A stretch of DNA of 41,125 bases from Burkholderiaceae bacterium (GTDB taxonomy: Bacteria > Pseudomonadota > Gammaproteobacteria > Burkholderiales > Burkholderiaceae): the NCBI GenBank assembly GCA_017998575.1, contig JAGOCV010000001.1, positions 1 to 41,125 of the forward strand, in the 5' to 3' direction. Under the pieces are notes generated by a model. That model searched no databases, was not told where the DNA came from, and saw only the letters and a list, made by a program, of their open reading frames with translations. Both the position numbers and the translations under genes were made by a program. Positions 16,013 to 33,499 of the stretch are shown here, piece after piece. Position 1 is the first letter of the stretch; the number at the start of each line of letters is the position of its first letter.

Positions 16013-16028
16013 GATGGCACAGGGCTCG

Positions 16029-16519: not shown

Positions 16520-16528
16520 AAGCCCTTA

Positions 16529-16559
16529 ATTATAGCCTGCGCCCGCAGGTTGCGCGCAA
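16529..16559 (-). promoter_or_regulatory. Promoter of the tRNA gene
   Basis: Minus strand: a perfect -10 TATAAT (complement of 16529-16534) lies about 10 bases before the mature tRNA 5' end. The best -35 is TTGCGC with a long 19-base spacer, so the -35 is poor. Predicted +1 is near 16522. Confidence 0.6.
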
Positions 16560-16580
16560 GCCCCCGGCGGGGGCTTGCGC
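16554..16580. terminator. Long GC hairpin after the VWA lipoprotein gene
   Basis: GCGCAAGCCCCC (16554-16565) and GGGGGCTTGCGC (16569-16580) form a perfect 12-base stem with a 3-base loop, 36 bases after the stop of the von Willebrand gene. No T tract follows on the minus strand, so it may slow or end transcription without being a classic intrinsic terminator. It overlaps the -35 side of the tRNA promoter. Confidence 0.5.
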
Positions 16581-16615
16581 GATCGGGGCGGCGCACCCCG
16601 TTGCCGGGCCCGCGT

Positions 16616-18151: not shown

Positions 18152-18292
18152 CGGATCCTCCGGTGGGTGGTGATGCGGGATGACACGGGCAGGGGCTGTG
18201 GATGGGGTCGAGCGGCGCGAAATATTTTTTCTGGCCGCCCATCGACCCCGCTGCCTCCCGCCGCGCGTGCAAGCTGATGTGAGAATCCCCGC

Positions 18293-18919
18293 ATGCCCGA
18301 CGCTTCGCGCGACGACGACCAACTGATGCTGGCCTACGCCCGCGGCGACACCGCCGCCTTCGACGAGCTGTACGCACGCCACGAGAGTGCGCTGCTGCGC
18401 TTCGTGCGCCGCCTGCTGGGCCAGCCGCTGGCCGCGCAGGCCGACGAGGTGTTCCAGGACACCTGGATGCGCATCATCGCGGCGCGTGCGGGCTACGTGG
18501 CGCGCGGCGACGAGGGCGGCGGCCGCGCGAGCTGGCGCACCTGGGCCTTCACCATCGCCCACCACGCGGCCATGGACCGGCTGCGCACCAGCGGGCGCGA
18601 AGTCACCCTGGAGATGGCGGATGACGCCAGCGACCCGATGGAATGGCTGCAGGCCTCGCTCGACATGAGCCACCCGGCCACCGAAGACGTGGCCTTCTGG
18701 CGCGCGGCCGGCCAGCAGTTGCTGGATTGCCTGGACGCCCTGCCCGATGCGCAGCGCGCCGCGTTCCTGCTGCACCACGAGGACGGCGCCTCGGTCGAAG
18801 ACCTGGCGCGGCGGCTCGCCCTGCCGTTCGAGACCGCCAAGAGCCGCCTGCGCTACGCGCTGCAGAAACTGCGTGGCTGCATGCAGTCGTACCTGATGGT
18901 GCTGGAGGCCAGGACATGA
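18293..18919 (+). CDS. ECF-type RNA polymerase sigma factor
   Basis: 208 residues with sigma region 2 (about 12-100: AFDELYARHESALLRFVRRLL, ADEVFQDTWMRII, RTWAFTIAHHAAMDRLR) and sigma region 4 (about 145-200: LPDAQRAAFLLHHEDG, SVEDLARRLALPFETAKSRLRYALQKLR). The two are joined by an acidic linker. There is no region 1 or 3. The ATG at 18293 is the only start giving the usual length. The stop overlaps the next start (ATGA), so the adjacent membrane protein is a likely anti-sigma partner. The divergent VWA lipoprotein gene is a candidate target. Confidence 0.93.
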   Translation: MPDASRDDDQLMLAYARGDTAAFDELYARHESALLRFVRRLLGQPLAAQADEVFQDTWMRIIAARAGYVARGDEGGGRASWRTWAFTIAHHAAMDRLRTSGREVTLEMADDASDPMEWLQASLDMSHPATEDVAFWRAAGQQLLDCLDALPDAQRAAFLLHHEDGASVEDLARRLALPFETAKSRLRYALQKLRGCMQSYLMVLEART

Positions 18920-20037
18920 GTACCCACCGCGCCGATCGGCCTGGCGCCTCCCCGTTGCGCGATGCACGTCTGGCGCGAGCGCTCGACCATGCGCCCGATG
19001 CGCACCTGCGTCCCGACGGCGCCGTGCGTGCGGCCGTGCTGTCGGCCGCGCGCGAAGCCGTGGCACCGCCGGCCGCGCCCGTGCGGGCCGGCTGGCGCGC
19101 CTGGCTGGGCGGCGGCCGTGGCACGGGCATGCCATGGAATGCGGCCTTCGCCACGCTGCTCGTCGCCGGCTTCGTCACCCTCTTGTGGCAGGGCGAGCCC
19201 GTACCCGATGCGCGCCTGGACACGCCAGCGCCCGCGGCCGAACCGGCTGGCGCCGGGCCGGCCGAAGTGCCCGTGGCGCCGGCCGTGTCGTCACCCGCGC
19301 CCGCACCGGCACCGGCACCGGCACCGGCACCGGCACCGGCACCGGCACCGGCACCGGCACCGGCACCGGCACCGGCACCGGCACCGGTTCTCAGGCCGGC
19401 GCCTCCATCGGCCGCGGAGCGTGGGCCGGCCCGCGACATGCGTGAAGCTGAAGCCTCGCGCCAGCGCCGCGCCGAGGCGCCGGCGATGCAGTCGGCACGA
19501 CCTGCGCCTGCATCTGCGCCGACAAGTCCATCGGCCGATGCCGCCGATGCCTTCGGTGGGCCGGCCGGAGCCCCGGCCGTTGCGGAGTCGGCGAGTCCGG
19601 CGCCGCCATCCGCGCCCCCGGCACCCGTCGCGGCGCCTGCCGCACCTGCGCCTGCCGCCCGCTCCGCCGCACCGATGGCCGCCCAGCGCCTCATGGTCGG
19701 AACAGCCGTGCCCGGCGACTGGACGCACTTGCGCGTCGCGCAACCCGGCGGGGGCGTGCTGGCGCTGGATCGTTCGGCGGCCGGGTCACTGCCCGACCTG
19801 CTGCGTGCCCTCAGGCCGTCGGCTGACCCCCCGGGCGTGGCAGCCGATGCGACTGCGCCCGCGCAGCGCATCGAACTGCGCCGGGGCGACGCCGTGCTCG
19901 GCACGCTGGAGCTGCAGGCCGACCGCTGGCGCTACCAGCCGCTGGCGGCCGATGCACCGGCGCGCACCGGGCGGCTGGATGCGGCTGCGGCTGCGGCCTG
20001 GCGCGCCGAACTCGCGCGTCTGGCGGCGCCGCGCTAG
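18916..20037 (+). CDS. Single-pass membrane protein, candidate anti-sigma factor with Ala-Pro repeat
   Basis: 373 residues. A cytoplasmic N-terminal part (1-73) contains short helices but no HxxxC-type zinc anti-sigma motif. One membrane segment follows (about 74-92, WNAAFATLLVAGFVTLLWQG), then a long Pro/Ala-rich periplasmic linker including 14 Ala-Pro pairs at 130-157. The compact C-terminal domain (about 255-370) contains WTHLRVAQPGGGVLALDR, QRIELRRGDAVLGTLEL and DRWRYQPL. Translational coupling to the sigma factor and the topology suggest an anti-sigma role, but no diagnostic domain is visible. The start at 18916 is fixed by the ATGA overlap. Confidence 0.75.
   Translation: MSTHRADRPGASPLRDARLARALDHAPDAHLRPDGAVRAAVLSAAREAVAPPAAPVRAGWRAWLGGGRGTGMPWNAAFATLLVAGFVTLLWQGEPVPDARLDTPAPAAEPAGAGPAEVPVAPAVSSPAPAPAPAPAPAPAPAPAPAPAPAPAPAPAPVLRPAPPSAAERGPARDMREAEASRQRRAEAPAMQSARPAPASAPTSPSADAADAFGGPAGAPAVAESASPAPPSAPPAPVAAPAAPAPAARSAAPMAAQRLMVGTAVPGDWTHLRVAQPGGGVLALDRSAAGSLPDLLRALRPSADPPGVAADATAPAQRIELRRGDAVLGTLELQADRWRYQPLAADAPARTGRLDAAAAAAWRAELARLAAPR
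19303..19386 (+). repeat. (GCACCG)14 hexanucleotide microsatellite
   Basis: Fourteen perfect tandem copies of GCACCG (84 bases). They are in frame in the membrane-protein gene and encode 14 Ala-Pro pairs. A change in copy number alters linker length by two residues per unit without a frameshift. The perfection of the array suggests recent expansion by slippage. Confidence 0.95.
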
Positions 20038-20072
20038 AAGAGCCCTGCCGCGCCACCGGGCTCAGGGCGCAT

Positions 20073-20849
20073 TCAACTGTGGTTGAAGGTGGCACGGCGC
20101 TTGTTCATGAAGGCATCCATGCCTTCCTTCTGGTCGGCGGTGGCGAACAGCGCGTGGAACAGCCGGCGCTCGAACATCACGCCGTCCGAGAGCGAACCTT
20201 CGAAAGCCCGGTTGACCGATTCCTTGGCGGCCATCACGGCCAGTTGCGAGAACTCGCTGATCTGCAGCGCGGCGCCCAGCGCTTCGTCCATCAGTTTCTC
20301 GAGCGGCACCACGCGCGACACCAGGCCCGCGCGCTCGGCTTCGGTGGCATCCATCATGCGGCCGGTGAGCGCCATGTCCATGGCCTTGGACTTGCCTACC
20401 GCGCGCGGCAGGCGCTGCGTGCCGCCCGCGCCGGGAATCACGCCGAGCTTGATCTCGGGCTGGCCGAACTTCGCGTTGTCGGCCGCGATGATGAAGTCGC
20501 ACATCATGGCCAGCTCGCAGCCGCCGCCCAGGGCAAAGCCGCTCACCGCCGCGATCACCGGCTTGCGCACGCTGCGGATGGTTTCCCAGTTGCGCGTGAT
20601 GTAGTCGCCCTTGTAGACCTCGGAGAACGTGTAGGTGGCCATGGCGCCGATGTCGGCACCGGCGGCGAACGCCTTCTCGCTGCCCGTCACGATGATGCAG
20701 CCGATGCCGTCGTCGGCGTCGAAGGCCTTGAGCGCGGCGCCCAGCTCGTCCATCAGGGCGTTGTTGAGCGCGTTGAGCTGCTTGGGCCGGTTGAGCGTGA
20801 CGATGCCCACCTTGCCTTCCGTGCGCACGACGATGTTCTCGTAGGTCAT
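20073..20849 (-). CDS. Enoyl-CoA hydratase
   Basis: 258 residues, the normal length for short-chain crotonase-family hydratases, which hydrate trans-2-enoyl-CoA in beta-oxidation. Visible motifs are the oxyanion-hole segments AAGADIGAM (about 62-70) and [15 protein letters not shown], with the first catalytic Glu, then [20 protein letters not shown] with the second catalytic Glu. Both glutamates are present, favouring hydratase over isomerase activity. AGGAG stands about 8 bases before the ATG at 20849. It is separated by 43 bases from the NRAMP-family gene that ends upstream on the same strand; common transcription is possible but not shown. Confidence 0.93.
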
Positions 20850-20892
20850 GGGTGAAGTCTCCTGCCAAAAAAAACCGATTGTGGGGGAAAGC

Positions 20893-22179
20893 TCAGTACA
20901 CGAGCGAGACCAGGAACGCCACCGAAGCGATGCCCATCAGCGCCGTGGCCAGCCATCCGCCCAGGCGCAGCCGTCGGCCGATCGCGAAGCGGCCCATCAG
21001 CGCCTTCGAGGCCGCCATGTGCATGGTGACGACCATGATGGGAACGGCCGCGATCCCGTTGAGCACGGCCGCCCAGAGCAGCTCCTGCACCGGATCGACA
21101 TCGTTGAGATTGAGGGCCACGCCCACCACCACGGACGCGATAAGCACCGCGTAGAAACCGCGCGCCTGCGCCGTGGTTTTCTCCAGGCCCGCGGGCCAGC
21201 CCAGTGCCTCGGCCATGGCATAGGCCGAAGAGCCCGCCAGCACTGGCACCGCCAGCATGCCGGTGCCGATCAGTCCGGCGGTGAACAGCAGGTAGGCCAT
21301 CTCGCCCACCAGCGGGCGCAGCGCCTGCGCGGCCTGCTCGGTGGTGTCCACCTGCGTGATGCCGTGGCTGTGCAGCGCCAGCGCGGCCGTGAGCATGATG
21401 CAGAACGCGATCACGTTGGAGAACAGCATGCCGGCCCAGGTGTCGATGCGGATGCGCCTGAGGTGGGCACGGGCGTCGCGGGTGCCCATGTCATGCGGGC
21501 CGGCCTCGCCGCGCAGGGCATGCCCTTCGGCCTCCTGGCTGGCCTGCCAGAAGAAAAGGTAGGGGCTGATGGTGGTGCCCAACACGGCGACGATCATCAT
21601 CCAGTAGTCGCGGCCAGCCGACAGGCGCGGCACCAGGCTGTCGGCGAAGACGCGGCCCCAGTCGATGCCGCCGGCGAACAGCACGGCCGCGTAGGCCAGC
21701 AGGCTGAGCGTGAGGGCCTTGAGGACTGGCGAATAGCGCGACAGCGGCAGGAACACCTGCAGCCCGAGCGACACCAGCGCGAAGCCGATCAGCCACAGAT
21801 GCGTGGAGCCACCGGCCAGCAGGCGTGCGGCGCTGGCCATGGCGGACAGATCGGCGCCCAGGTTGATGGTGTTGGCCACCACCAGCAGCATCACCACGGC
21901 GGCCACCAGCGGCGCCGGATAGCGCTCTCGAAGGTTGGCCGCCAGACCGCGCCCGGTCACCCAGCCGATGCGCGCGCTCACCAGCTGGATCGATGCCATC
22001 AGCGGCAGTGTGAGCACCGTGGTCCAGAGCATGCCGGTGCCGAACTGCGCGCCCGCCTGGGTGTAGGTGGCGATGCCGCTGGGATCGTCGTCGGCGGCGC
22101 CCGTCACCAGCCCGGGCCCCAGGGATTGAAGGAAACCGGCCCTGGCGGGCGCGGGCGTCTTGTCTTCGTGTTCCGGCAT
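20893..22179 (-). CDS. NRAMP-family divalent metal transporter, atypical metal site
   Basis: 428 residues with about 11 hydrophobic segments and the NRAMP fold pattern: [23 protein letters not shown] in segment 1 (named here at residues 21-43) and [10 protein letters not shown] in segment 6 (202-211). Canonical Mn/Fe transporters have DPGN in segment 1 and MPH in segment 6. Here these read DPSG (32-35) and SPY (205-207), so the metal-binding Asn and the Met are replaced. This places it in a divergent branch of the family whose cargo may not be Mn or Fe. ATG 22179 is chosen for a short polar N terminus before segment 1. It lies 56 bases after the desulfinase-like gene on the same strand. Confidence 0.88.
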
Positions 22180-22235
22180 GCAGCGGCCTTCGGGGCGGGA
22201 GTGGCCCGAGGTTACGCCGTGCCGGCGCGTTTGTC

Positions 22236-23282
22236 TTAGGGCGTTCTTAAGGGGGTGCCGCTGTCGTCGCGCAGTGCCTGGGCCAGCGGGCCCGCTGCGA
22301 CCCATTCGTCCACGCGCAGGGCGTGGCCGGTGAAGCCGTGGCGATGGAGGAAGTCGGCCTGCACCTGCAGCAGGGCCAGCCGGTCGGCATCGAGATCGGG
22401 GGCGAAGCCGGCGTGGAAGCCATCGCGGTAGGCCTCGCGCACTTCGGCGGCATCGCCACCGGCCTCGCGCTCCAGGATGGCGCGCACGTCGGCCGTGTGC
22501 TCGCGGGCCCAGCGGGCCGCGCGCAGCGATTCCTGCAGGAAGGCCACAGCCCATTCGGGCCGGTGCTGCAGCAGCTCGTCATGCACGGTGAGCGGGCGCG
22601 GCGTGCCATTGTTCACGCGCAGCCGGCGCTCGGGCAAGGCGTCGATTTCGATGGCCGCAACCAGCCCGGCCGCGCGCGCGGCGGCCAGGCCGCCCGAGCC
22701 CTTCACGTAGGCGGCATCGGCGCGGCCTTCGGCCACGGCCGCCAGCGCCATCCAGCCGGTGCCGGGCCGGCCCGCGCGCAGCTTGCCGGGCGGCACCGTG
22801 GCGCCGACCGGAACGTCGACGACCTGCACCGCGTCGAGCCCCAGGCCCGCATGGCGCAGCACCGATTCGAAGCCGGCCAGCGCCATCGCGCGCTGATGGC
22901 TGGCGTGGCGCTCGGCGGCCCAGCCGGGCACGGCAATGCGCCGGCCGGCCAGCGTGGCGGCGGTGACCGGCTCATCGGCGCGCGAGACGATGAGCTGGCG
23001 CTCGTCGATCCATGTGAGGCCGATGAGCCACGTGGGTGCGCCGTTCGCGCGCGCGACGATGGCCGGCACGTTGCCGCCCTCGCGCACGAGGCCGGGCAGG
23101 GCGTGGTCGTAGTGATGACGGGCGATGTGCGCGGGCGCGTCCTGCAGCACGCCCAGCGTGAGGCCCAGGGCCTGCGCGCGCTCGCCCAGCCAGCCCTGCG
23201 AGAACGCCAGGCCGCTGGCGGTGGGCACGGGGCAGCGGGTGTACCAGAGATCGGCCAGCGTGTCGGTGGATGTTGTCGTCAT
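22236..23282 (-). CDS. DszB-like desulfinase (ABC substrate-binding fold, no signal peptide)
   Basis: 348 residues with no signal peptide, so cytoplasmic, unlike the related SsuA-type binding proteins. TRCPVPTA (15-22) matches the NCPVPNA of Rhodococcus DszB, placing Cys17 at the catalytic Cys27. HHYDHALPGLVREGGN (56-71) matches the DszB segment with catalytic His60 and Arg70 (here His56/57 and Arg67). PVTAATLAGRRIAVP matches PITAAADLAGRRIGV, and the C terminus (RLALLQVQADFLHRHG) also fits. DszB cleaves 2'-hydroxybiphenyl-2-sulfinate to 2-hydroxybiphenyl and sulfite. The comparison is from memory. It is the last gene of an operon with an SsuD-like monooxygenase and ABC importer, so a C-S bond-cleaving step in organosulfur use is likely; the true sulfinate is unknown. 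Confidence 0.75.
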   Translation of the reverse strand: MTTTSTDTLADLWYTRCPVPTASGLAFSQGWLGERAQALGLTLGVLQDAPAHIARHHYDHALPGLVREGGNVPAIVARANGAPTWLIGLTWIDERQLIVSRADEPVTAATLAGRRIAVPGWAAERHASHQRAMALAGFESVLRHAGLGLDAVQVVDVPVGATVPPGKLRAGRPGTGWMALAAVAEGRADAAYVKGSGGLAAARAAGLVAAIEIDALPERRLRVNNGTPRPLTVHDELLQHRPEWAVAFLQESLRAARWAREHTADVRAILEREAGGDAAEVREAYRDGFHAGFAPDLDADRLALLQVQADFLHRHGFTGHALRVDEWVAAGPLAQALRDDSGTPLRTP

Positions 23283-23296
23283 GGCTGTGCCGAGCG

Positions 23297-24214
23297 TCAG
23301 TTCGCGTTGCCCCGCTCGTGCGCCGCATGCCAGTGCAGCAGGTGCCGCTCGACCGCGAGGAAGCCGTAGTTGAGCGCATAGCCCACGGCGGCCACGGTGG
23401 CGGCACCGGCATACATGCGCGCGATGTCCAGCGTCTGTTGCGCATTGAGGATGTAGAAGCCGATGCCCGAATTGCCGGCGATCATTCCCGAGGCGATGGC
23501 CAGCACCAGCGAGCTGGCCAGCGCCAGCCGCAGGCCCACGAATATCTGCGGCGCGGCGGCCGGCACCACGATCTCGCGCAGCGTCTGCCAGCCGGACAGG
23601 CCGAACGACGCGGCCGTGTCGCGCAAGGCCGCCGGCACGGCACGCGCGCCCGAGTACGAAGCGATCAGGATCGGCTCCACCGCCGACAGCACGATGGCGA
23701 ACACATTCATCTCGCGGCCCAGGCCGAGGTAAAGAATGATCACCGGGATGAACACGATGGTGGGCACCGGGCGCATCAGCTCCACCAGCGGCTCCAGCAG
23801 CGCATACACCACGCGCACGCGCGCCATCAGCACGCCCAGCACCAGGCCGATGACGGCGGCGATGCCATAGCCGTATGCCATCGAAACCAGCGTATCCGAG
23901 AGGTTGGCGGGCAGCTCGCCATGGCGCATTTCATGCAGCCACACAGTGGCGATGCGGCTGGGCGCGGGCAAGCCGGGCGAGGGGCTGACGGCGGCCCACG
24001 CTTCCCACACCAGCAGCAGCAGCGCCAGTGCGCTCCAGCCGAAGGCGCGGCGGCGGAAGAAAGCAAGGGGTGGGCGTGGATCGGCCTGCGCGCGGGTGGC
24101 GGGGACCACCGTGGCGTGCGGCGGAACTGCGGGTTGGGACGCCAGGGCAGCGGCAACGCTGCCCGCCGTGATGGACGGCCCCGTGGCGGAAACGGCGGCG
24201 GTGGTGGTCTGCAT
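23297..24214 (-). CDS. ABC transporter permease, sulfonate/taurine type
   Basis: 305 residues with a variable Ala/Thr-rich N-terminal extension of about 50 residues, six hydrophobic segments from about residue 55, and the permease EAA-like loop (DTAASFGLSGWQTLREIVVPAAAPQIFVG) that docks on the ATPase. The SsuC/TauC-type pattern MRPVPTIVFIPVIILYLGLG is clear. ATG 24214 is the first sensible start after the ATPase gene stop (29-base gap); no strong ribosome-binding site precedes it. It forms one importer with the ATPase and binding protein genes upstream. The desulfinase-like gene follows after 14 bases. Confidence 0.92.
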   Translation of the reverse strand: MQTTTAAVSATGPSITAGSVAAALASQPAVPPHATVVPATRAQADPRPPLAFFRRRAFGWSALALLLLVWEAWAAVSPSPGLPAPSRIATVWLHEMRHGELPANLSDTLVSMAYGYGIAAVIGLVLGVLMARVRVVYALLEPLVELMRPVPTIVFIPVIILYLGLGREMNVFAIVLSAVEPILIASYSGARAVPAALRDTAASFGLSGWQTLREIVVPAAAPQIFVGLRLALASSLVLAIASGMIAGNSGIGFYILNAQQTLDIARMYAGAATVAAVGYALNYGFLAVERHLLHWHAAHERGNAN

Positions 24215-24243
24215 TGGATGCGCGAAGGAACGGTGGGAAACGG

Positions 24244-25056
24244 TCAGGCGGCCAGGCGCGTCTCGCGCGCCGGCTCGGGGGTCAGCACGTGGTCGAGCAG
24301 CGCACGGCGCGATTCGAGATAGCGCGTCGATTCGCGCGTGCTCACCTGGTGGCGCGGTCGCTGCAGATCGATGGGCAGGCTGGCCGCCAGGCCCCGGCCG
24401 CGTGCGTCCATCACCACCACGCGGTCGGCCAGGTAGGCGGCCTCGTCGATGTCGTGCGTGACCAGGATGGCGGTGAAGCCGAGCTGCTGCCACAGCTGCA
24501 GCACCATGTCCTGCAACTGTGCGCGGCTGAGCGCATCGACCGAGCCGAAGGCCTCGTCGAGCAGCAGCACGTCGGGCCGTGAGGCCAGGGCGCGCGCGAT
24601 CGCCACGCGCTGCTGCATGCCACCCGAGAGCTCGCGCGGATAACGTCTGAGCGCATGGCCCAGGCCCACCAGGTCGGCCACGTGCGGCACGATGTTCACC
24701 GGCCCGCCGGCATCCACCGCATGGCGCGAGCCGAAGCGGATGTTGTTCTCCACCGTCAGCCAGGGCAGCAGCGACTGCGTGTAGTCCTGCGCCACGAAGC
24801 GCGCGCGCGGCGGCGGTCCCAGCACCGGCGCGCCGTGCACGTGTACCGCCCCGCTGTTCGCGCGCAGCAGTCCGCCGATCAGGCGCAGCAGCGTCGACTT
24901 GCCCGAGCCCGAGCGGCCGACGATGGCCACGAACTCACCGTGCCGTATCCGCAGCGACACGCCTTGCAGCGCCTGCACGCGGCCGTTGCGGCCCTGGTAG
25001 GCGTACGAGGCGTCGTCCACCGAGATGGCGAAGGCCTGCGATGCGCTTTGCGTCAT
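24244..25056 (-). CDS. ABC transporter ATPase, sulfonate/taurine type
   Basis: 270 residues with Walker A GRSGSGKST (about 47-55), Q-loop FVAQDYTQSLLPWLTV, signature LSGGMQQR, Walker B VLLLDEAFGSVD and switch His in LVTHDIDEA. The Q-loop followed by LLPWLTVENN is typical of the SsuB/TauB/NrtD group, which energises uptake of sulfonates, taurine or nitrate. It lies between the binding protein (22-base gap) and permease genes, consistent with one transcript. Confidence 0.94.
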   Translation of the reverse strand: MTQSASQAFAISVDDASYAYQGRNGRVQALQGVSLRIRHGEFVAIVGRSGSGKSTLLRLIGGLLRANSGAVHVHGAPVLGPPPRARFVAQDYTQSLLPWLTVENNIRFGSRHAVDAGGPVNIVPHVADLVGLGHALRRYPRELSGGMQQRVAIARALASRPDVLLLDEAFGSVDALSRAQLQDMVLQLWQQLGFTAILVTHDIDEAAYLADRVVVMDARGRGLAASLPIDLQRPRHQVSTRESTRYLESRRALLDHVLTPEPARETRLAA

Positions 25057-25078
25057 GGCTACGGGTCCGGGGACGGGT

Positions 25079-26080
25079 TCAGACGCGCGTGGCCGTGGCC
25101 GTGGGCAGCAGCAGCGGGCGCAGGTCGATGGCCTTTTTCACCGTGCCGTGCTTTTGCGCCACCTGCAGCCATTCGCCGGTGGCGGCCAGGTCGATCGGCC
25201 CCGAATGCGCGGCGTTGGCGTCGTCCATGCGCTTGATCGTGCCGGGCACCTCGCGCTCCACCGCGAAAAGGTCAACCTTGTCGTACTTGAGCGAGATGCG
25301 CGCCTTCTGCTCGGCGGTGTAGCCGTTGTAGCGGGCTGCGCCCTCACGTGCGGCACGCACGAAGCGCGTGGCGTGCCCGGCGTTGGCGCCCACCCAGTCG
25401 CGGCGCGAGAAGAAGCCGGCGGTGGTGGCCGTGGCCGGAATCTGTTCCCAGGGCCGGCCTTCGAGGATGCGCACCTTGAACTGCTGTTCCCATTGCGCCA
25501 CGTTCGGGTCGGCCGCGATGGCCGCGTCGATCTGGCCGTTGTGCAGCGCCGCGCCCACCGTGTCGCGCTGGTTGATCACGATGAACTGCACGTCGCTGGC
25601 GCTGAGGCCGAAGCGTTCCAGGTACAGCGTCACGCGCAGCTTGCTCTGCGCATGCGCGGCCACGCCGATCTTCTTGCCCTTGAGGTCGCGCGGCGACTGC
25701 ACGCCCGAGCGGGCCGAGGCGATGATGAAGTCCGAATTGCCGCGGCCGTTGGCCGACTGCAGGAAGGCGAGATCGAAGCCGTTGTCCAGCGCGCCGACCC
25801 AGGCGAACAGGTCGGCGAAGCCGATCTCCAGCGAATTGCCGACCACGGCGGTGAGGATGTTGGGCCCGCCAGCCAGCGTGACGAGCGAGATGTCCAGCCC
25901 TTCGCGTGCGAACAGGCCTTCCTCGATGGCGGTCTTCACCCCCGGAATGGAGCCGTGCGGCGCGCCCACGCGCAGCTTCACGGGGTCGGCCGCGAAGACG
26001 CGTGGCGCCGCGACGAGGGCGGCCGACGTGGCGGCGAGTTGCAAAAGCGCGCGGCGTGAGGGACGGTGGATGCTGGACAT
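25079..26080 (-). CDS. ABC transporter substrate-binding protein, SsuA type
   Basis: 333 residues with a twin-arginine-like signal peptide (PSRRALLQLAATSAAL, cleavage near 30) and an SsuA/TauA/NMT1-type periplasmic binding fold. Motifs include GVKTAIEEGLFAREGLDISLVTLAGGPNI, split here as VKTAIEEGLFAREGLDI and LAGGPNI, LKGKKIGVAAHAQSK and NQRDTVGAALHNGQIDAAIA. Family members bind sulfonates, taurine, nitrate or pyrimidine precursors. The neighbouring SsuD-like and DszB-like enzymes point to an organosulfur ligand. It is the first importer gene after the monooxygenase gene (72-base gap). Confidence 0.92.
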   Translation of the reverse strand: MSSIHRPSRRALLQLAATSAALVAAPRVFAADPVKLRVGAPHGSIPGVKTAIEEGLFAREGLDISLVTLAGGPNILTAVVGNSLEIGFADLFAWVGALDNGFDLAFLQSANGRGNSDFIIASARSGVQSPRDLKGKKIGVAAHAQSKLRVTLYLERFGLSASDVQFIVINQRDTVGAALHNGQIDAAIAADPNVAQWEQQFKVRILEGRPWEQIPATATTAGFFSRRDWVGANAGHATRFVRAAREGAARYNGYTAEQKARISLKYDKVDLFAVEREVPGTIKRMDDANAAHSGPIDLAATGEWLQVAQKHGTVKKAIDLRPLLLPTATATRV

Positions 26081-26152
26081 GGCTCTGGATGACGGTCGTC
26101 GTTGGAAGAAATGGAATCGGCGGCGCTTGCGCGCCGGCCTTGCGTCGTTTGC

Positions 26153-27307
26153 TTACGCGCTCTCGGTTTCGCGCGCGATGTCGAGCACGCTGCGCGGGGT
26201 CTTGCCCCAGGCGTAGGGACGCGGCTCGCCCTGCCCGGCCTGCCAGGATTTCTCCAGAGGCAGCAGCGGCATCACCTGGTCCGCGAAGCGGTGGGCTTCC
26301 TCGATCAGCGGATTGCCCGAGACGATGAAAGCCTCGACGCCGAGCGCGCGGTATTCCAGCAGCACCCTGGCCACCGTCTGCGGCCCGCCCACCACCGCCA
26401 GGCCGGGGCCGTGCCGCAGCAGGCCGAAGCCGGACCACAGGCCGGGGTGGATTTCCAGGTCTCGCGCGTGGCGCGGCCGCTCTCCGCCGTGCAGGGCCGT
26501 CTGGCGCACCTGACCCACGGCATCCTGCTTGCGGTTGTTGGCCTGCACGCGCGCGATGGTGTCGTCGCTGGTGTCGTCCAGCATCTGCTGGGCAGCGGCC
26601 CAGGCCTCGTCGTCGGTGTCGCGCACGATCAGGTTCAGGCGGATGCCGTAGCGCAGCTTGCGGCCGTAGGCGGCGGCGCGCGCGCTCACCTGGGCGATGG
26701 TCTCGGCCGTCTGCCTGGGCGGTTCGCCCCAGGTCAGATATGTGTCGACGTGACGCGCGGCCACGTCGATGGCGATGTCCGACGAGCCGCCGAACCACAG
26801 CGGCGGGTAGGGGCGCTGAAGCGAGGGGAACTCGGCCTCGGCGCCCTGCACCTTGAGGAACTCGCCGTCGAAATCGACACGTTCGCCTGCCATCACGCGG
26901 CGGTAGATCTCCAGGAACTCGTCGCAGCGGCGGTAGCGCTCGTCATGGTCCAGGTGCACGCCAGCGGCGGCGAACGAGGTGTGGCCGTTGACGATGTTGA
27001 GCAGCACGCGTCCGCCCGTGTGCTGGTCGAGCGTGGTCACGTGCTTGACCAGCTGCGTCGGCGTGAAGACCGACGGATGCACCGCCAGCAGGAAGCGCAC
27101 GCGCGTGGTCACCGAGGCCAGCGTGGCCGCCGTGACGAACGGGTCGAGCCCGCCCGAGGGCTGCGTGGCGAACAGCGCGCCCGAATAGCCGCGTGCGTCC
27201 AGCGTGGAGGCGAGCGCCTTGAGGTAGTTGATGTCGACCGCGCGCGACCACTTCGGGTCCCACGGATAGCGGCCGTCGCGGTTCACGATGTACCAGAGGA
27301 TTTCCAT
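26153..27307 (-). CDS. SsuD-like FMNH2-dependent monooxygenase
   Basis: 384 residues, closely following E. coli SsuD (381) along its length: PTQLVKHVTTLDQHTGGR, YPPLWFGGSSDIAIDVAARH, YLTWGEPP, DSVGQ-like DAVGQVRQTALHGG, GLLRHGPG. SsuD releases sulfite and an aldehyde from alkanesulfonates, using FMNH2 and O2. By an alignment from memory, the positions of SsuD Cys54, His228 and Tyr331 are here Gly52, Asn (GIRLNLIVR) and Asn (VSGNPLIEE), while Arg226 and Arg297 are kept. The fold and flavin use are therefore clear but the substrate is probably different. No flavin reductase gene is in the operon. The aldolase gene precedes it by 39 bases. Confidence 0.9.
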   Translation of the reverse strand: MEILWYIVNRDGRYPWDPKWSRAVDINYLKALASTLDARGYSGALFATQPSGGLDPFVTAATLASVTTRVRFLLAVHPSVFTPTQLVKHVTTLDQHTGGRVLLNIVNGHTSFAAAGVHLDHDERYRRCDEFLEIYRRVMAGERVDFDGEFLKVQGAEAEFPSLQRPYPPLWFGGSSDIAIDVAARHVDTYLTWGEPPRQTAETIAQVSARAAAYGRKLRYGIRLNLIVRDTDDEAWAAAQQMLDDTSDDTIARVQANNRKQDAVGQVRQTALHGGERPRHARDLEIHPGLWSGFGLLRHGPGLAVVGGPQTVARVLLEYRALGVEAFIVSGNPLIEEAHRFADQVMPLLPLEKSWQAGQGEPRPYAWGKTPRSVLDIARETESA

Positions 27308-27346
27308 GTTGTCTTTCGGGTTCGGGGGAGGGGGAAGGCCGCGCCT

Positions 27347-28042
27347 TCAGGCGCGCGCCATGGGCTGGGCGCCGCCCAGGGCCTGGGCGTGGATGAACAC
27401 GGCGGCCGCGTCGTTGATGCTGGCGAGCAGGTCGGCTGCCTGCGCCACGCTTTCGTGGAAGGCCAGTACACCGTGATTGGCCAGCAGCACGGCGCGCGTG
27501 TCCGGATGCTCGGCCAGCAGTGCGCCGATCTGCGCAACCAGGTCGCCGTTGTCGCGCTCGCCGAAGCGGGTCACCGGGATCTCCACGCGCTGGCCACGGT
27601 TGTAGAGCGGCTCGTAGTGCGGCGGGATCGGCCGGTGCGCGACGGCGAAGGCGGTGGCGTAGGGCGAGTGCGAGTGGATCGACATGCGCGTGCCCGGCCG
27701 CGACAGCGCCAGCAGATGCATGCCGATGACCGAGCGGATGCCCTTGCCGAGACGGCCGGCCACGAACTCGCCGTCGAAGGTGACGACGCCGAAGTCCTCC
27801 GGACCAAGGTCGCGTGGCAGGCCGCGCGCGGTGATCAGGACGTGGCCGTCGGCGTCTTCCAGCCGCACGGCGATGTTGGCGGCGCCGCCCTGCAGCGCGC
27901 CGCGCTCGTGCAGCAGCCCCACCTGGTGCAGCACCTGCGCGCGCAACTGCGCGTCGCGCGGGCCCAGTGCCAGAGGCGTGCCGGCAATCGGCACCATCGA
28001 GGAACCGAAGGCGATGGCGGAGGGGGTGGCGGTGGAAGACAT
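27347..28042 (-). CDS. Class II aldolase/adducin-family protein
   Basis: 231 residues with the class II aldolase fold. Features are N-terminal helices, GAANIAVRLED, the zinc ligands HSHSPYATAFAV (about 140-151) and NHGVLAFHESV with the third His. Family members are Zn aldolases or decarboxylases acting on small hydroxy-carbonyl compounds, often phosphorylated. It is the first gene of the organosulfur operon, so it may process the carbon skeleton or aldehyde left after C-S cleavage; that role is inference. ATG 28042 is preferred since in-frame sequence upstream of it runs into the regulatory region. Confidence 0.85.
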   Translation of the reverse strand: MSSTATPSAIAFGSSMVPIAGTPLALGPRDAQLRAQVLHQVGLLHERGALQGGAANIAVRLEDADGHVLITARGLPRDLGPEDFGVVTFDGEFVAGRLGKGIRSVIGMHLLALSRPGTRMSIHSHSPYATAFAVAHRPIPPHYEPLYNRGQRVEIPVTRFGERDNGDLVAQIGALLAEHPDTRAVLLANHGVLAFHESVAQAADLLASINDAAAVFIHAQALGGAQPMARA

Positions 28043-28126
28043 GGCGTCGTGGGGCGCGCGTGCGGCGTCTGAACGGAAGCGGATGACGGTCAAGCAAGCA
28101 CGCGGATCACCGTCGATCAGTCCATT

Positions 28127-28157
28127 CTTGGTTGAACACGACGACGGGCCAACCAAG
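28127..28157. promoter_or_regulatory. Inverted repeat upstream of the organosulfur operon
   Basis: CTTGGTTG (28127-28134) and CAACCAAG (28150-28157) form a perfect 8-base inverted repeat over a 15-base spacer, 85-115 bases before the aldolase start. The length and TTG...CAA ends would suit a LysR-type regulator, the class (CysB, Cbl, SsuR) that controls sulfonate genes elsewhere. No regulator gene is in the operon. The rest of the 28043-28340 gap holds no gene. Confidence 0.5.
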
Positions 28158-28260
28158 CATTCCGAGGATGCATATGCGGCGAACGAGCAAGCCGCTGCCA
28201 TCAGCTCATGAACATTTCCGATCCGCCGCTGCTACGGGAAAACCCAAGCAAGAATTCGCC

Positions 28261-28276
28261 AACCGAGTGGTCGGTT
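28261..28276. promoter_or_regulatory. PaaR/TetR-like operator before paaG
   Basis: AACCGA-GTGG-TCGGTT is a perfect 6-base inverted repeat. ACCGA...TCGGT palindromes of this size are characteristic of TetR-family PaaR regulators of phenylacetate genes in betaproteobacteria. The right arm would act as the -35 for a -10-like TAGATT at 28293-28298 (16-base spacing), so repressor binding would block the promoter. Confidence 0.6.
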
Positions 28277-28303
28277 ATCGATGCGTTGATGCTAGATTTC
28301 CCG

Positions 28304-28325
28304 CAGGACGCGCAGCTGCGTCCTG
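28304..28325 (+). promoter_or_regulatory. 5' leader hairpin of the paaGIK mRNA
   Basis: CAGGACGC (28304-28311) pairs with GCGTCCTG (28318-28325) over a 6-base loop. The predicted +1 from the TAGATT -10 is near 28305, so the hairpin would sit at the very 5' end, and the ribosome-binding AAGGAG follows immediately (28326-28331). It could stabilise the mRNA or gate ribosome access. Confidence 0.5.
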
Positions 28326-28340
28326 AAGGAGACAAGCCCG

Positions 28341-29147
28341 ATGACCGAACCCGCCGTCACGTATGCGGTGCATGGCGCCGTGGCCGTGGCCACGCTCAAC
28401 CGGCCGCAGGCGCTCAACGCCTTCACGCGACAGATGCACGAGGATCTGCGCGCCGCCTGCGACCGCGCCGAGGCCGACGCAGATATCCGTGCGCTGGTGA
28501 TCACTGGCGCCGGCCGCGGCTTCTGCGCGGGCGCCGATCTGTCCGAGTTCGATTTCGCGCCCGGCCCCGGCCTGGTGGAGCGGGCCGACCCCGGCCCCGT
28601 GATCGAGCAGAACTTCAACCCCACGGCGCGTCGCCTCATGGGCCTGCGCGTGCCCACGGTGGCGGCCGTCAACGGCGTGGCGGCCGGTGCCGGGGCGTCG
28701 CTGGCGATGAGCTGCGATCTGGTGGTCGCCAGCAGCGGCGCCAGCTTCATCCAGGCGTTCAGCCGCATCGGCCTGATTCCCGATGCGGGCGGCAGCTGGC
28801 TGCTGCCGCAGCGCGTGGGCCTGGCGCGCGCGCTGGGCCTGGCGATCACGGGCGACAAGCTCACCGCCGTGCAGGCGCAACAGTGGGGCCTGGTGTGGGA
28901 GGTGGTGGACGGCGACGGCGCGCAGTGCGTGCAGGCCGCGCTGTCGCTGGCCGAACGGCTGGCCGCCATGCCGACACGCGCGCTGGTGGCCACGCGCCAG
29001 CTCATGCGCGAGGGCGCCACGCGCACGTGGGACGAACAGCTCGATGCCGAGCGCGACATGCAGTCGGCGCTGGGACGCACGCACGATTACATCGAAGGCG
29101 TGACCGCCTTCCTCGAGAAGCGCGCGCCGCGCTTCAGGGGCGAATGA
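28341..29147 (+). CDS. paaG: 2-(1,2-epoxyphenyl)acetyl-CoA isomerase PaaG
   Basis: 268-residue crotonase-family enzyme of the phenylacetyl-CoA pathway, converting the ring epoxide to the oxepin-CoA. Motifs: GRGFCAGADLSEFDF (oxyanion hole), NGVAAGAGASLAMSCDLVVA and SRIGLIPDAGGSWLLP. The first hydratase Glu is replaced by Ser (GASLAM), and the second active-site position is Asp in PDAGG, as expected for PaaG-type isomerases. AAGGAG stands 9 bases before the ATG. The stop overlaps the paaI start. The operon is paaG-paaI-paaK behind a PaaR-like operator. Confidence 0.88.
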   Translation: MTEPAVTYAVHGAVAVATLNRPQALNAFTRQMHEDLRAACDRAEADADIRALVITGAGRGFCAGADLSEFDFAPGPGLVERADPGPVIEQNFNPTARRLMGLRVPTVAAVNGVAAGAGASLAMSCDLVVASSGASFIQAFSRIGLIPDAGGSWLLPQRVGLARALGLAITGDKLTAVQAQQWGLVWEVVDGDGAQCVQAALSLAERLAAMPTRALVATRQLMREGATRTWDEQLDAERDMQSALGRTHDYIEGVTAFLEKRAPRFRGE

Positions 29148-29599
29148 TGGCCGCCCCGCTGACGCCCGACGAACGCGCGCGCCGCGTCGGTGAGGCCATG
29201 TTCGCGGACGACCGCGCCTCGCGCGAGACCATGGGCATGGCGCTGGTGTCGTGCTCGCCGGGCCGCGCCGTCATGCGCATGGAAGTGCGCGAGCTTCACC
29301 TCAACGGCCACCGCATCTGCCACGGCGGCTTCATCTTCACGCTGGCCGATTCCACCTTCGCCTTCGCGTGCAACAGCTACAACCGCGCGGCGGTGGCCGC
29401 CGGCGGCAGCATCGAATTCCTGCGCCCGGGCGAGCTGGGCGACGTGCTGACCTGCGAGGGCACCGAGCAGGTGCTGTCGGGCCGGCACGGCATCTACGAC
29501 ATGCGCGTGACCAATCAGCGCGGCGAAACCGTGGCGCTGCTGCGCGGCAAGAGCGCGCAGATCCAGGGCACCGTCTTCCACGAGGAGCCATCCCCATGA
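29144..29599 (+). CDS. paaI: Hydroxyphenylacetyl-CoA thioesterase PaaI
   Basis: 151-residue hotdog-fold thioesterase thought to rescue CoA from dead-end phenylacetate intermediates. LNGHRICHGGFIFTLADSTFAFACNSYN (split: NGHRICHGGFIF, LADSTFAFACNSYN) is the PaaI signature with the conserved Asp, and GGSIEFLRPGELGDVL follows. Two ATG codons (29144 and 29147) are both in frame; the first overlaps the paaG stop as ATGA. Its own stop overlaps the paaK start as ATGA, so all three genes are translationally coupled. Confidence 0.93.
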   Translation: MMAAPLTPDERARRVGEAMFADDRASRETMGMALVSCSPGRAVMRMEVRELHLNGHRICHGGFIFTLADSTFAFACNSYNRAAVAAGGSIEFLRPGELGDVLTCEGTEQVLSGRHGIYDMRVTNQRGETVALLRGKSAQIQGTVFHEEPSP

Positions 29600-30894
29600 C
29601 CGCCAGCTTTGCGCTCGAGCCGATCGAGCGGGCATCCACCGACGAGTTGCGCGCGCTGCAGCTCAAGCGCCTGAAGGCCACGCTCTCGCACGCGTGGCGC
29701 AATTCGCCCGTCTACCGGGCCAAGTTCGACGCGGCCGGCGTGCATCCCGACGACTGCCGCTCGCTCGCCGATCTGGCGAAGTTCCCGTTCACCACCAAGG
29801 CCGACCTGCGCGACAACTACCCGTTCGGCCTGTTCGCCGTGCCGCGCGAGCAGTGCGTGCGCCTGCATGCTTCCAGCGGCACCACCGGCAAGCCCACGGT
29901 GGTGGGCTACACCCGCAACGACATCGAGATGTGGTCGCACTGCATGGCGCGCAGCCTGCGCGCGGCGGGCGCGCGGCCCGGCGACCTGGTGCACGTGAGC
30001 TACGGCTACGGCCTCTTCACCGGCGGCCTGGGCGCGCACTACGGCGCCGAGAAGCTGGGCCTCACCGTCGTGCCCTTCGGCGGCGGGCAGACCGAACGCC
30101 AGGTGCAGCTGATCAACGACTTCCGCCCCGACATCGTCATGGTCACGCCCAGCTACATGCTGGCCATGGCCGACGAGTTCGAACGCCAGGGCATCGATCC
30201 GGCCAGCACCAGCCTGCGCCTGGGCATCTTCGGCGCCGAACCCTGGACCAACGACATGCGCGCGGCGATCGAGCGGCGCATGGGCATCGACGCGGTGGAC
30301 ATCTACGGCCTGTCGGAAGTCATCGGCCCCGGCGTGGCCAACGAGTGCGTGGAGACCAAGGACGGCCCCACCATCTGGGAAGACCATTTCTTTCCCGAGA
30401 TCGTCGATCCGGCCACTGGCGAGCCCGTGGCCGACGGCGAGATGGGCGAGCTGGTCTTCACCAGCCTGACCAAGGAAGCCCTGCCCATCATCCGCTACCG
30501 CACACGCGATCTCACACGCCTCTTGCCAGGCACGGCGCGCACCATGCGCCGCATGGAAAAGATCACCGGCCGCAGCGACGACATGATGATCGTGCGCGGC
30601 GTGAACGTGTTTCCCACGCAGATCGAGGAGCTCATCCTGCGCCAGCAGGCGCTGGCGCCGCACTACCAGTGCGTGCTCTCGCGCGAAGGCGCCATGGATT
30701 CGCTGGCCGTGGTGGTGGAAGTGCGCGCCGGCCTCTCGCACGACACGCCCGCCGCGCGGCAGGCCGTGGTCGACCTGCAGCACGACATCAAGGCCTACGT
30801 GGGCACGACCGCGCGCGTCGAGGTGCGGCCCGAGGGCAGCATGGAGCGCAGCATGGGAAAGGCCAAGCGCGTGCTGGACCTGCGGGCGCGCTGA
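29596..30894 (+). CDS. paaK: Phenylacetate-CoA ligase
   Basis: 432-residue adenylate-forming enzyme that activates phenylacetate with ATP and CoA, the entry step of the aerobic hybrid pathway. Motifs: HASSGTTGKPT (91-101), DIYGLSEVIGPG, YRTRDLTRL and the C-terminal SMGKAKRV with the conserved Lys. Length and sequence are typical. It is the last gene of the coupled paaGIK unit; the ring-epoxidase genes paaABCDE and paaZ are not in this window. It converges on the M61 peptidase gene with only 24 bases between stops and no clear terminator. Confidence 0.95.
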   Translation: MTASFALEPIERASTDELRALQLKRLKATLSHAWRNSPVYRAKFDAAGVHPDDCRSLADLAKFPFTTKADLRDNYPFGLFAVPREQCVRLHASSGTTGKPTVVGYTRNDIEMWSHCMARSLRAAGARPGDLVHVSYGYGLFTGGLGAHYGAEKLGLTVVPFGGGQTERQVQLINDFRPDIVMVTPSYMLAMADEFERQGIDPASTSLRLGIFGAEPWTNDMRAAIERRMGIDAVDIYGLSEVIGPGVANECVETKDGPTIWEDHFFPEIVDPATGEPVADGEMGELVFTSLTKEALPIIRYRTRDLTRLLPGTARTMRRMEKITGRSDDMMIVRGVNVFPTQIEELILRQQALAPHYQCVLSREGAMDSLAVVVEVRAGLSHDTPAARQAVVDLQHDIKAYVGTTARVEVRPEGSMERSMGKAKRVLDLRAR

Positions 30895-30918
30895 ACGCCC
30901 CGACGACCGGAAGGCCGC

Positions 30919-32700
30919 TCAGTCCAGCCAGCCGCCCAATGCCTTGGCATCGCGCGCCGACAACCGCCACGTGGTGGCGCCCTGCGGCAGTTCGAGCGGC
31001 AGTCGCAGCAGGCGCTTGTCGCGCGCGACGACGGCGGTGATGCGGCGCGCGGCCGTGCCCGCGTAGAGCGCGATGTCGTCGAGCCGGCCGATGCGCCAGC
31101 CCTGCGGCTCGGCGCCGCGGCGCGCAGGCAGCTCGATGCCCAGCCATTCGTCGCCGGCGGCCAGCCCGGCCTGCTGGCCGGCGCCGCCGGACAGCACCAT
31201 CTTCACCTGCACGGCCTGGCCTTCGGTCACGCGCAGGCCCAGCGCCTGCGCCATCTGCGCCGGATCGTCATGCACCTGGGCGCCGTGCTTTTCCAGCAGC
31301 GGGCGCAGCGGCAGCTCGTCGGTGCCGTGAACCCAGGCCGCGATCTCGCGCGTGAACGCCCGTCCGCCCACATCTTCGAGCACGGCGGCGAAGTCGGCCT
31401 CGGTCATCGGGCCGGCGGCGCAGCGCTGCCACAGCCCACGCATCACGTCGTCGAGCGTGCCGCGGCCTTCGGCGCGCAGCGTGAGGTCGAATGCCAGACC
31501 CACCAGCGCGCCCTTGGTGTAGTAGCTGACGGTGGCATTGGGCGTGTTCTCGTCCTGGCGGTAGTACTTGACCCAGGCGTCGAAGCTGGCCTGCGCCACC
31601 GACTGCACGAAGCGCCCTGGCGTCTGCAGCACCTGGTTGGCCGTCTTGCACAGCAGGCGCAGGTAGGTGGCGTCGTCGATCAGGCCGGTGCGCCGCAGGA
31701 ACAGGTCGTCGTAGTAGCTGGTGAAGCCTTCGAAGAACCACAGCAGCTGGCTGTAGTTCTCGGCGTCGTAGCGGTAGCGCTCGAACTCGGCCGGCCGCAG
31801 GCGCTTGACGCTCCAGGTGTGGAAGTACTCGTGGCTGACCAGGCCCAGCAGCGTGGTGTAGCCGTCGGTGCTGCGCGCATCGCCCAGGCGGGGCAGGTCG
31901 CGCCGGTCGCAGATGAGCGCCGTGGAGTTGCGGTGTTCCAGCCCGCCGTAGCCATCGTTGACGGCGTTGAGCAGGAACACGTAGCTCTTGAACGGCGGAC
32001 GGCGCGAGCCGTGCCAGAAGCGGATCTGCGCCTCGCAGATGCGGCGCGTGTCGCGCAGCAGGCGCTCGCCGTCGAACGAGGCGGGCGCACCGGCCACGAC
32101 GAAGCGGTGGTTCACGCCACCGGCCTTGAAGCGCCCGCTCCAGAACGCGCCCATCTCGACGGGGCAGTCGGCCAGCTCGTCATAGTCCTGTGCCACATAG
32201 CTGCCAAAGCCGCGCGAATCGACGGAGACTGGCGTGAGCCCGGTGGCCAGTTCCCAGCGCGGCGTGCCACGCGGCAGGCGGGGCGGGGGCAGCTCGATGG
32301 CGTGCAGGCCGCCCTGCTGGCCTTCCACGCGCAGGCACACGCTGGTCGGGTTGAAGAAGCAGCGGCTCTCGTCGAGCCAGGCGGTACGCACCGAGTTGTC
32401 GAAGGCGTACACCTCCCACGACAGTTCGAGCGGTTTGGATGGGTCGGCCTGTACGCGCCAGCGCGCCTTGTCGATCTGCTCCACGGTCAGCTCGTGGCGG
32501 CCCTGGCGCGCCACCAGGCGCTGCAGGTGGCGCGAGAACTCGCGCACCAGGTAGCTGCCCGGAATCCAGACCGGCAGCGACAGCTCGGTGACAGCCTGCG
32601 GATGATCGATGCGCAGGCTGGCGTGCAGCAGGTGCTCGTGCGTGCTGCCGATCTCGACGCGGTAGTGCAGCGCCGCGGCGCCCTGTGCGCGCCCCGCCAT
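30919..32700 (-). CDS. M61 family glycyl-aminopeptidase-like metalloprotease with PDZ domain
   Basis: 593 residues: N-terminal M61 beta domain (about 10-205), catalytic thermolysin-like domain with GGLEHRNS (253-260), zinc site HEYFH (290-294) and WFFEGFTSYYDD (third ligand Glu324), and a C-terminal PDZ domain (about 485-570). No signal peptide is seen at the chosen ATG, so it appears cytoplasmic. The ATG at 32700 overlaps the dsbC-like stop by one base (TGATG), which argues against longer upstream starts. Order ubiH-like, dsbC-like, M61 on one strand suggests one operon. Confidence 0.92.
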   Translation of the reverse strand: MAGRAQGAAALHYRVEIGSTHEHLLHASLRIDHPQAVTELSLPVWIPGSYLVREFSRHLQRLVARQGRHELTVEQIDKARWRVQADPSKPLELSWEVYAFDNSVRTAWLDESRCFFNPTSVCLRVEGQQGGLHAIELPPPRLPRGTPRWELATGLTPVSVDSRGFGSYVAQDYDELADCPVEMGAFWSGRFKAGGVNHRFVVAGAPASFDGERLLRDTRRICEAQIRFWHGSRRPPFKSYVFLLNAVNDGYGGLEHRNSTALICDRRDLPRLGDARSTDGYTTLLGLVSHEYFHTWSVKRLRPAEFERYRYDAENYSQLLWFFEGFTSYYDDLFLRRTGLIDDATYLRLLCKTANQVLQTPGRFVQSVAQASFDAWVKYYRQDENTPNATVSYYTKGALVGLAFDLTLRAEGRGTLDDVMRGLWQRCAAGPMTEADFAAVLEDVGGRAFTREIAAWVHGTDELPLRPLLEKHGAQVHDDPAQMAQALGLRVTEGQAVQVKMVLSGGAGQQAGLAAGDEWLGIELPARRGAEPQGWRIGRLDDIALYAGTAARRITAVVARDKRLLRLPLELPQGATTWRLSARDAKALGGWLD

Positions 32701-33425
32701 CACTTGCTGGAGCTGGCGAGTTGCGCTTCGACCTGGCTGGCGTTGATGGCGCCGGGGATGCGCGTGCCGTCCGAGAAGATCAGCGTGGGCGTGCCGGTGA
32801 TCTTGTACTTGCGGCCGAACTCGACGTTGCGCTGCAGCGCGGCCGGATCGCAGGCACCGCTCACGGGCGGGATGGCGGCCTCGCGCACCATGTAGTCCTG
32901 CCACACGCGGCCCTTGTCCTTGGCGCACCAGATGGCGCGGCTTTTCTCGACCGAGTCCTGGCCCAGGATGGGATAGAGGAACATGTGGATCGTGACGTTG
33001 TCCACCTTCTGCAGGTCGCGCTCGAAGCGCTTGCAGTAGCCGCAGTTGGGGTCTTCGAACACCGCCAGCTTGCGCTTGCCGTTGCCGCGCACGATGGTGA
33101 ACGCATCCTTGACGGGCAGCGAAGCGAAGTCGACCGCGGTGAGCCTGGCGATGCGCTCCTCCGTCAGGTCGCGCTGTTCCTTGGTGTCGATCAGGTTGCC
33201 CTGGATGAGGAAGTTGCCCTGGGCGTCGGTGTAGAAAATTTCCGAGCCGTTGACGCGTACCTCGAACAGGCCGGGCATGGGCGCGGGCACCACTTCGTCG
33301 ATGGACGGCATGCGCGGCAGGCGCTCGGCCAGGTTTTTGCGGATCACGGCCTCGTTGGCCAGCGCGCCGACGCTGAAGGCGAAGGCCGCGCAGGCCAGGA
33401 CGAGTCGTTGGTGGAGTTTCTTCAT
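32700..33425 (-). CDS. dsbC: DsbC-family thiol:disulfide interchange protein
   Basis: 241 residues with a Sec signal peptide (MKKLHQRLVLACAAFAF..., cleavage near ALA at 24), an N-terminal dimerisation domain (about 25-90) and a thioredoxin fold with active site CGYC (128-131). Cis-Pro is in TGTPT (210-214), and a second cysteine pair (C167, C192) is present as in E. coli DsbC. It isomerises wrong disulfides in the periplasm and would be kept reduced by DsbD. The MKKLHQR start (33425) is preferred to an in-frame ATG 33 bases upstream because it begins directly at the signal peptide. Confidence 0.93.
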   Translation of the reverse strand: MKKLHQRLVLACAAFAFSVGALANEAVIRKNLAERLPRMPSIDEVVPAPMPGLFEVRVNGSEIFYTDAQGNFLIQGNLIDTKEQRDLTEERIARLTAVDFASLPVKDAFTIVRGNGKRKLAVFEDPNCGYCKRFERDLQKVDNVTIHMFLYPILGQDSVEKSRAIWCAKDKGRVWQDYMVREAAIPPVSGACDPAALQRNVEFGRKYKITGTPTLIFSDGTRIPGAINASQVEAQLASSSK

Positions 33426-33499
33426 GGTGTCTTGTAGCCCGATATCCAGTGCCGGCACCGTGCCGGCGGTCGCAGCGCCCGTCTCGCGCGCCGGTGGCT

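Follow-up and report, generated by a model that had tools for sequence, protein, structure and literature searches.

A six-gene operon with a DszB-like desulfinase candidate, an SsuD-family monooxygenase and a class II aldolase-fold protein in a Burkholderiaceae bacterium

The operon and its encoded proteins

The window, a stretch of 41,125 nucleotides from a Burkholderiaceae bacterium (GenBank assembly GCA_017998575.1, contig JAGOCV010000001.1), carries six minus-strand genes at 22236-28042, coding for an SsuABC-like ATP-binding cassette (ABC) importer, a flavin-dependent monooxygenase, a class II aldolase-fold protein and a candidate desulfinase related to DszB. These genes are a real operon; the set is conserved and its distribution is sporadic. 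The operon is best read as a variant of DszB-like sulfur-scavenging clusters. In order of transcription, the features are:

28042-27347, minus strand: class II aldolase-fold protein (Pfam Aldolase_II, PF00596)
27307-26153, minus strand: SsuD-family monooxygenase dependent on reduced flavin mononucleotide (FMNH2), with an altered pocket (Pfam Bac_luciferase)
26080-25079, minus strand: substrate-binding protein of the SsuA/NMT1 type with a hydrophobic N-terminal stretch (Pfam NMT1)
25056-24244, minus strand: ABC importer ATPase, SsuB/NtrD-like (Pfam ABC_tran)
24214-23297, minus strand: ABC importer permease, SsuC/TauC-like, start taken at the ATG of MQTTT (Pfam BPD_transp_1)
23282-22236, minus strand: DszB-like desulfinase candidate of 348 amino acids (sequence match to DszB in the PDB, weak Pfam NMT1)
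22230-28232, no strand: block made up of the operon and about 190 bp upstream, missing from a near relative with collinear flanks

The intergenic gaps measure 39, 72, 22, 29 and 14 bp, and place and spacing agree with the original prediction, which had been made from the letters of the window. All six gene names were backed by family searches, at the level of the family; binding protein, ATPase and permease matched SsuABC-like families, as expected for the predicted sulfonate-type importer. The same searches revealed no dszA- or dszC-type gene among the six. Both genes accompany DszB in its own operon; the proposal of a route distinct from dszABC is supported. A promoter scan found none, and terminator-like sites numbered 2 against 2.3 in shuffled sequences.

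By sequence and fold, the product of the last gene is a true relative of DszB. The nearest PDB chains were DszB (2de2, E 2.5e-18; 2de3, E 7.4e-17), while the other five of the seven chains listed had E values of at least 0.06. The fold comparison also gave DszB as the closest solved structure and placed the protein nearer to DszB than to SsuA. Cys17, His57 and Arg67 align to Cys27, His60 and Arg70 of DszB and were present in 213 of 214 alignment rows of relatives; a Gly-Gly following the Arg is shared as well. A hydrophobic leader is absent. The predicted DszB homologue with retained Cys, His and Arg was thus recovered, and its assignment as a desulfinase appears good. It is quite improbable that the three residues serve another protonation, e.g., the decarboxylation of a carboxylated aromatic compound, with the monooxygenase freeing the sulfur. 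A first scan of genome contigs with DszB yielded no relatives, but an alignment-based scan did recover them; at the protein level, 1402 matches were obtained among 8000 candidates scored. A rapid tree was calculated from 71 selected rows, without bootstrap and with DszB as outgroup on a very long branch; in it the window protein and those of the four six-gene loci sampled (L005, L007, L008 and L053) fell within one 40-row clade (SH-aLRT 98). A locus of Sphingomonas naasensis (L079) has three DszB-like genes, one of them with an Asp in place of the catalytic His.

The predicted SsuD-family oxygenase was confirmed at family level by its Bac_luciferase domain and by the retention of Arg226 and Arg297 of SsuD in an alignment with the E. 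coli enzyme and 7jv3 (MsuD). The score of 393.0 bits against the SsuD equivalog model TIGR03565 lies below the cut-off of 518.2, and the pocket residues of SsuD and MsuD are replaced (Cys54 by Gly, His228 by Asn, Tyr331 by Asn, His333 by Leu). 7olf and 7oh2, presumably the sulfoquinovose monooxygenase SmoC, belong to the same family and share both Arg, but keep in addition the His and Tyr of SsuD, unlike the window enzyme. Canonical SsuD already frees sulfite from a sulfonate. The predicted sequence of sulfonate, oxygenation and sulfinate is therefore not SsuD chemistry, and this part of the scheme fails as worded. The name MsuD for 7jv3 is also found in the accessible part of PMC8234197. Among 38 relatives of at least 55 % identity, window included, both Arg and Gly54 were invariant (38/38), position 228 was Asn in 35, Ser in 2 and Tyr in 1, Tyr331 was kept in 2 and His333 in 1; none had the full SsuD pattern. 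We infer an anionic substrate and an altered chemistry for this enzyme. A canonical SsuD operon was ruled out by the pocket residues and the score under the family cut-off. Similarity to SfnG, a monooxygenase of neutral sulfones, was also considered: the two SfnG proteins found (L085 and L086, from incomplete genomes) lack the two Arg that the window enzyme keeps, so a direct SfnG likeness is unsupported. A sulfone may still be the substrate of the operon.

That the SsuD-like enzyme alone converts a sulfonate to sulfite, with the DszB-like protein as a non-enzymatic cytosolic binding or regulatory protein of the SsuA fold, is unlikely. The SsuA/NMT1 fold is common to DszB, both Arg of SsuD are retained, and the names in the best 120 rows of DszB-like relatives are mostly ABC transporter substrate-binding protein (desulfinase in 9). 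Against this stand the near-invariance of the Cys, His and Arg, the closer relationship to DszB than to SsuA in fold and sequence, and the loss of the four pocket residues in the monooxygenase.

The operon proteins are poor in sulfur amino acids. Cys and Met account for 22 of 1871 residues (1.18 %), compared with 174 of 5953 (2.92 %) for 12 further genes of the window whose starts were set approximately; the binding protein contains no Cys and, beyond the start, one Met. In seven related loci the set had 1.39-1.70 %, figures without a local background. The low content fits an expression under sulfur limitation.

DszB-like clusters and their aldolase-fold partner

The survey covered the best 80 of 525 confirmed DszB-like loci, found with the DszB-like alignment; 73 of them extended at least 4 kb to either side. 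The loci are related, many of them from Nocardia, hence the counts are not independent. A DszB-like gene, a flavin monooxygenase gene and importer genes occurred together in 71 of the 73. The basic combination is common rather than unique, and a cluster of such layout has already been studied: in the accessible part of PMC3868597, bdsABC of Gordonia terrae C-6 are described as coding for a desulfinase, an FMNH2-dependent monooxygenase and an 'alkanesulfonate monooxygenase', and extracts of E. coli with bdsABC converted benzothiophene to o-hydroxystyrene. Neighboring transporter genes and the 'hypothetical' GTC6_01590 were upregulated on benzothiophene (PMC3868597). As in the window, a desulfinase gene lies there beside flavin monooxygenase and sulfonate-type transporter genes. 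In Table 1 of that paper, the genes follow one another by locus number as in the Nocardia- and Rhodococcus-type loci, a comparison by position only. A search with a Williamsia protein had Gordonia soli among the matches listed, not G. terrae.

This bds layout, with permease and ATPase genes upstream and at least two luciferase-like monooxygenase (LLM) genes downstream of the DszB-like gene, was present in 54 of the 73 loci. The window operon has the bds-type gene content (DszB-like gene, LLM gene, ABC importer), but departs from the layout: its single LLM gene lies upstream of the DszB-like gene and belongs to another subfamily than the two monooxygenases of the bds cluster. The second LLM partner in other DszB-like clusters is 32-39 % identical to the window monooxygenase. 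Its residue 228 is Asp in 54 of 60 rows, Glu in 4 and His in 2 (both His in Eremiobacterota); where the bds layout is present (54 loci), both Arg and His333 are retained and position 331 is Asn, Val or Gly. An extra SsuD-like gene, with His228 but Asn331, occurs in two loci of Nocardiopsidaceae (L015, L059). A large sister group of monooxygenases (P0159-P0240; Rhizobium, Agrobacterium, bacilli, cyanobacteria) has both Arg in nearly all rows, while position 228 is mostly Tyr or Asn and position 333 mostly Leu. Members that bear a name are called 'alkanesulfonate monooxygenase' or LLM oxidoreductase; with these pocket residues, the sulfonate name is doubtful there too.

New is the recurrence of a class II aldolase-fold gene near the DszB-like gene. 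In many bds-layout loci, an extra gene between the second LLM gene and the binding-protein gene is of this fold, and GTC6_01590 occupies the same slot in G. terrae, a likeness by position only that relies on the accessible text of PMC3868597. The Pfam cut-off was passed by all five proteins tested: three from that position, one from Eremiobacterota and one from Janthinobacterium. With a search by two profiles built from these genes, 51 of the 73 loci (54 of 80 overall) proved to have an aldolase-fold gene no more than 6 kb away from the DszB-like gene, 46 of a second type and 5 of the type seen in the window. Elsewhere in the 80 loci, over 523 kb, this search found none. Of 47 second-type genes, 39 are situated downstream of an LLM gene at a distance of at most 400 bp, and all 47 keep the HxH motif with the third His replaced by Gly, leaving two metal histidines where the window protein has three. 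The third-His motif reads E-A-N-G-G in all 47 (e.g., L014, 12251-12958). That its Glu acts as a carboxylate metal ligand is a pure guess. Among the papers listed by a literature search, with most of the subscription literature outside its range, none was seen to describe the six-gene set or the aldolase-fold partner.

The accessible part of PMC8557817 tabulates a protein named SsuA/DszB among the ssu proteins of Rhodococcus IGTS8; we read it as upregulated on dibenzothiophene because its rows precede those headed 'downregulated'. The text available for Gordonia alkanivorans 135 states that a DszB analogue was not detected (PMC11852219), and the consulted part of PMC6395730 reports a sulfolane-degrading Rhodoferax without dszB.

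For the aldolase-fold protein of the operon, a Zn aldolase had been proposed. The PF00596 domain and three metal histidines (His123, His125, His190) are in accordance with this and, together with the Tyr of FucA (Tyr143), were invariant in the six proteins of the alignment; the aldol cleavage is not supported, as the position of the catalytic Glu73 of FucA is an equally invariant Val105. In a fold search with a predicted model of middling confidence (predicted local distance difference test 72), pyruvic oxime dioxygenase, ribulose-5-phosphate epimerase, YgbL and FucA were tied, their E values differing by roughly tenfold at most. Pyruvic oxime dioxygenase is, according to the accessible text of PMC5216522, an Fe(II) enzyme of the class II aldolase fold that likewise lacks Glu73. 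Fold and three metal histidines are common to FucA, the dioxygenase and the operon protein, but the Tyr of FucA is retained in the operon protein and lost in the dioxygenase. In a PDB search with the aldolase alignment, FucA (1.9e-18) ranked ahead of the dioxygenase (1.1e-11), an argument against the dioxygenase as the closer relative.

The original scheme had a sulfonate or sulfosugar imported and desulfurized, and the carbon product cut by a true retro-aldolase. It has on its side the PF00596 domain, the three histidines, the FucA Tyr, the rank of FucA as nearest solved structure by sequence profile and an upstream LacI-like gene, named by eye, in one Microbispora locus (L005). Yet the catalytic Glu73 is Val105 in all six proteins of the alignment, the counterpart in all 47 second-type genes lacks even the third His, and the LacI-like gene appeared in just one of five Microbispora loci. 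The scheme seems very doubtful, and retro-aldol cleavage was not accepted as demonstrated chemistry.

Distribution, acquisition and genomic surroundings

The six-gene set was defined by an SsuD-like protein of at least 55 % and an aldolase-fold protein of at least 50 % identity, plus importer genes, within 6 kb. In the neighborhood survey suggested earlier, all six genes recurred together in 6 of the best 80 DszB-like loci: with the gene order of the window in Rhizobium sp. PP-CC-3A-592 and Aquamicrobium sp. LC103, and with another order in four Microbispora loci. A fifth Microbispora locus (L006) stops before the SsuD gene. This co-occurrence is more than chance. Judged by equal length of the longest contig, at least 10 of the 38 close SsuD-like relatives, window included, appear to share a contig with a listed DszB-like protein, and the Aquamicrobium protein (L053) would be the eleventh. 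The Rhizobium and Aquamicrobium genomes encode separately a protein with the full SsuD pattern (L095, L096). A LacI regulator as part of the module was dismissed, being confined to L005. Behind the Rhizobium copy (L007, 10473-13851) follow genes resembling, by eye, IS66 and another transposase, which fits a mobile history.

An SsuD-like search of the phylum at E 1e-120 matched 0 of 398 genomes, where true relatives score 1e-160 or better. At E 1e-110, 3 of 297 genomes in the order of Rhizobium and 8 of 297 in that of Microbispora were matched; by E value, one and seven of these matches belong to the subfamily of the window. The aldolase-fold search of 300 genomes of the order, run without a positive control, gave 0 at E 1e-30. 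Within the family, 13 of 399 genomes had a DszB-like match at 1e-40, the best of 50 % identity. The near relative G001 is collinear with the window at 93.5 % (13449-19321), 91.8 % (19350-22229) and 93.3 % (28233-39085), and 39 bp stand in place of the whole block between 22229 and 28233; it had no DszB-like match, and no SsuD-like match at 1e-60. As judged from these comparisons, acquisition by transfer seems more probable than repeated loss. Insertion sequence (IS) elements or direct repeats were not seen at the block edges in the window, and the G+C content of the block (0.707) is like that of the flanks (0.712 and 0.700). All 87 plasmid records with a DszB-like protein showed less than 60 % identity, and none of 1713 plasmid records held 80 % of the block DNA.

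Adjoining the operon, 28341-30894 carries genes resembling those of phenylacetate catabolism (enoyl-CoA hydratase, thioesterase, phenylacetate-CoA ligase; named by eye), a stretch that G001 has without the operon. Directly downstream of the DszB-like gene lies an Nramp metal transporter gene (20893-22308), whose start region differs from G001 near the block edge. A plus-strand open reading frame at 19291-19743 contains a long Ala-Pro repeat; the alignment with G001 is interrupted inside it (19321-19350), as if the repeat length varied.

Proposed route and its meaning

We give an even chance to the reading as a sulfur-starvation operon, probably gained horizontally, that would scavenge sulfur from a small anionic, already oxidized organosulfur compound. 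Observed are the gene content, the residues, the fold, the recurrence of the set and the lack of it in the near relative; the steps are proposed from family and residues. The SsuABC-like importer would take up the compound. The SsuD-family monooxygenase with its non-canonical pocket, supplied with reduced flavin by an enzyme encoded outside the operon, may oxygenate the carbon adjoining the sulfur and yield a sulfinate. In the cytosol, Cys17 of the DszB-like enzyme, aided by His57 and Arg67, would protonate the carbon of the C-S bond and release sulfite. Either ahead of C-S cleavage or following it, the aldolase-fold metalloprotein might act on a hydroxy or carbonyl group of the carbon moiety, and would do so without the Glu base of ordinary aldolases.

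Several findings weigh against this reading. Family searches detected no flavin reductase gene (ssuE) among the six. Identity to DszB is 31 % (90 of 292 aligned residues), and Arg16, His60, Lys194, Asn224 and Arg229, near-invariant in the DszB-like clade (212-213 of 214), are absent from DszB, thus the substrate and even the reaction may differ. The binding protein is 34-35 % identical in the Microbispora loci, where the transported compound may therefore be another one. One background gene of the window is equally poor in Cys and Met (1.16 %). The aldolase-fold gene was not in the bdsABC construct that desulfurized benzothiophene, and at the profile threshold used, none was found in 22 of the 73 loci.

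DszB has been studied mainly for fuel desulfurization. Tentatively, the class II aldolase-fold proteins, as non-aldolases, may serve as dedicated enzymatic partners, for instance as lyases or non-heme metal oxygenases, in a natural DszB-like organosulfur pathway of wide occurrence, with DszABC fuel desulfurization as its specialized offshoot; the window would then present the three-histidine version together with a new subfamily of SsuD-like monooxygenases. The members of the large DszB-like clade examined here are encoded in clusters together with genes for importers and monooxygenases. Knowledge of the natural substrate of the clade could explain the origin of DszB and yield new C-S cleaving enzymes, and the recurring aldolase-fold protein without the usual aldolase residues is a specific lead to that substrate.
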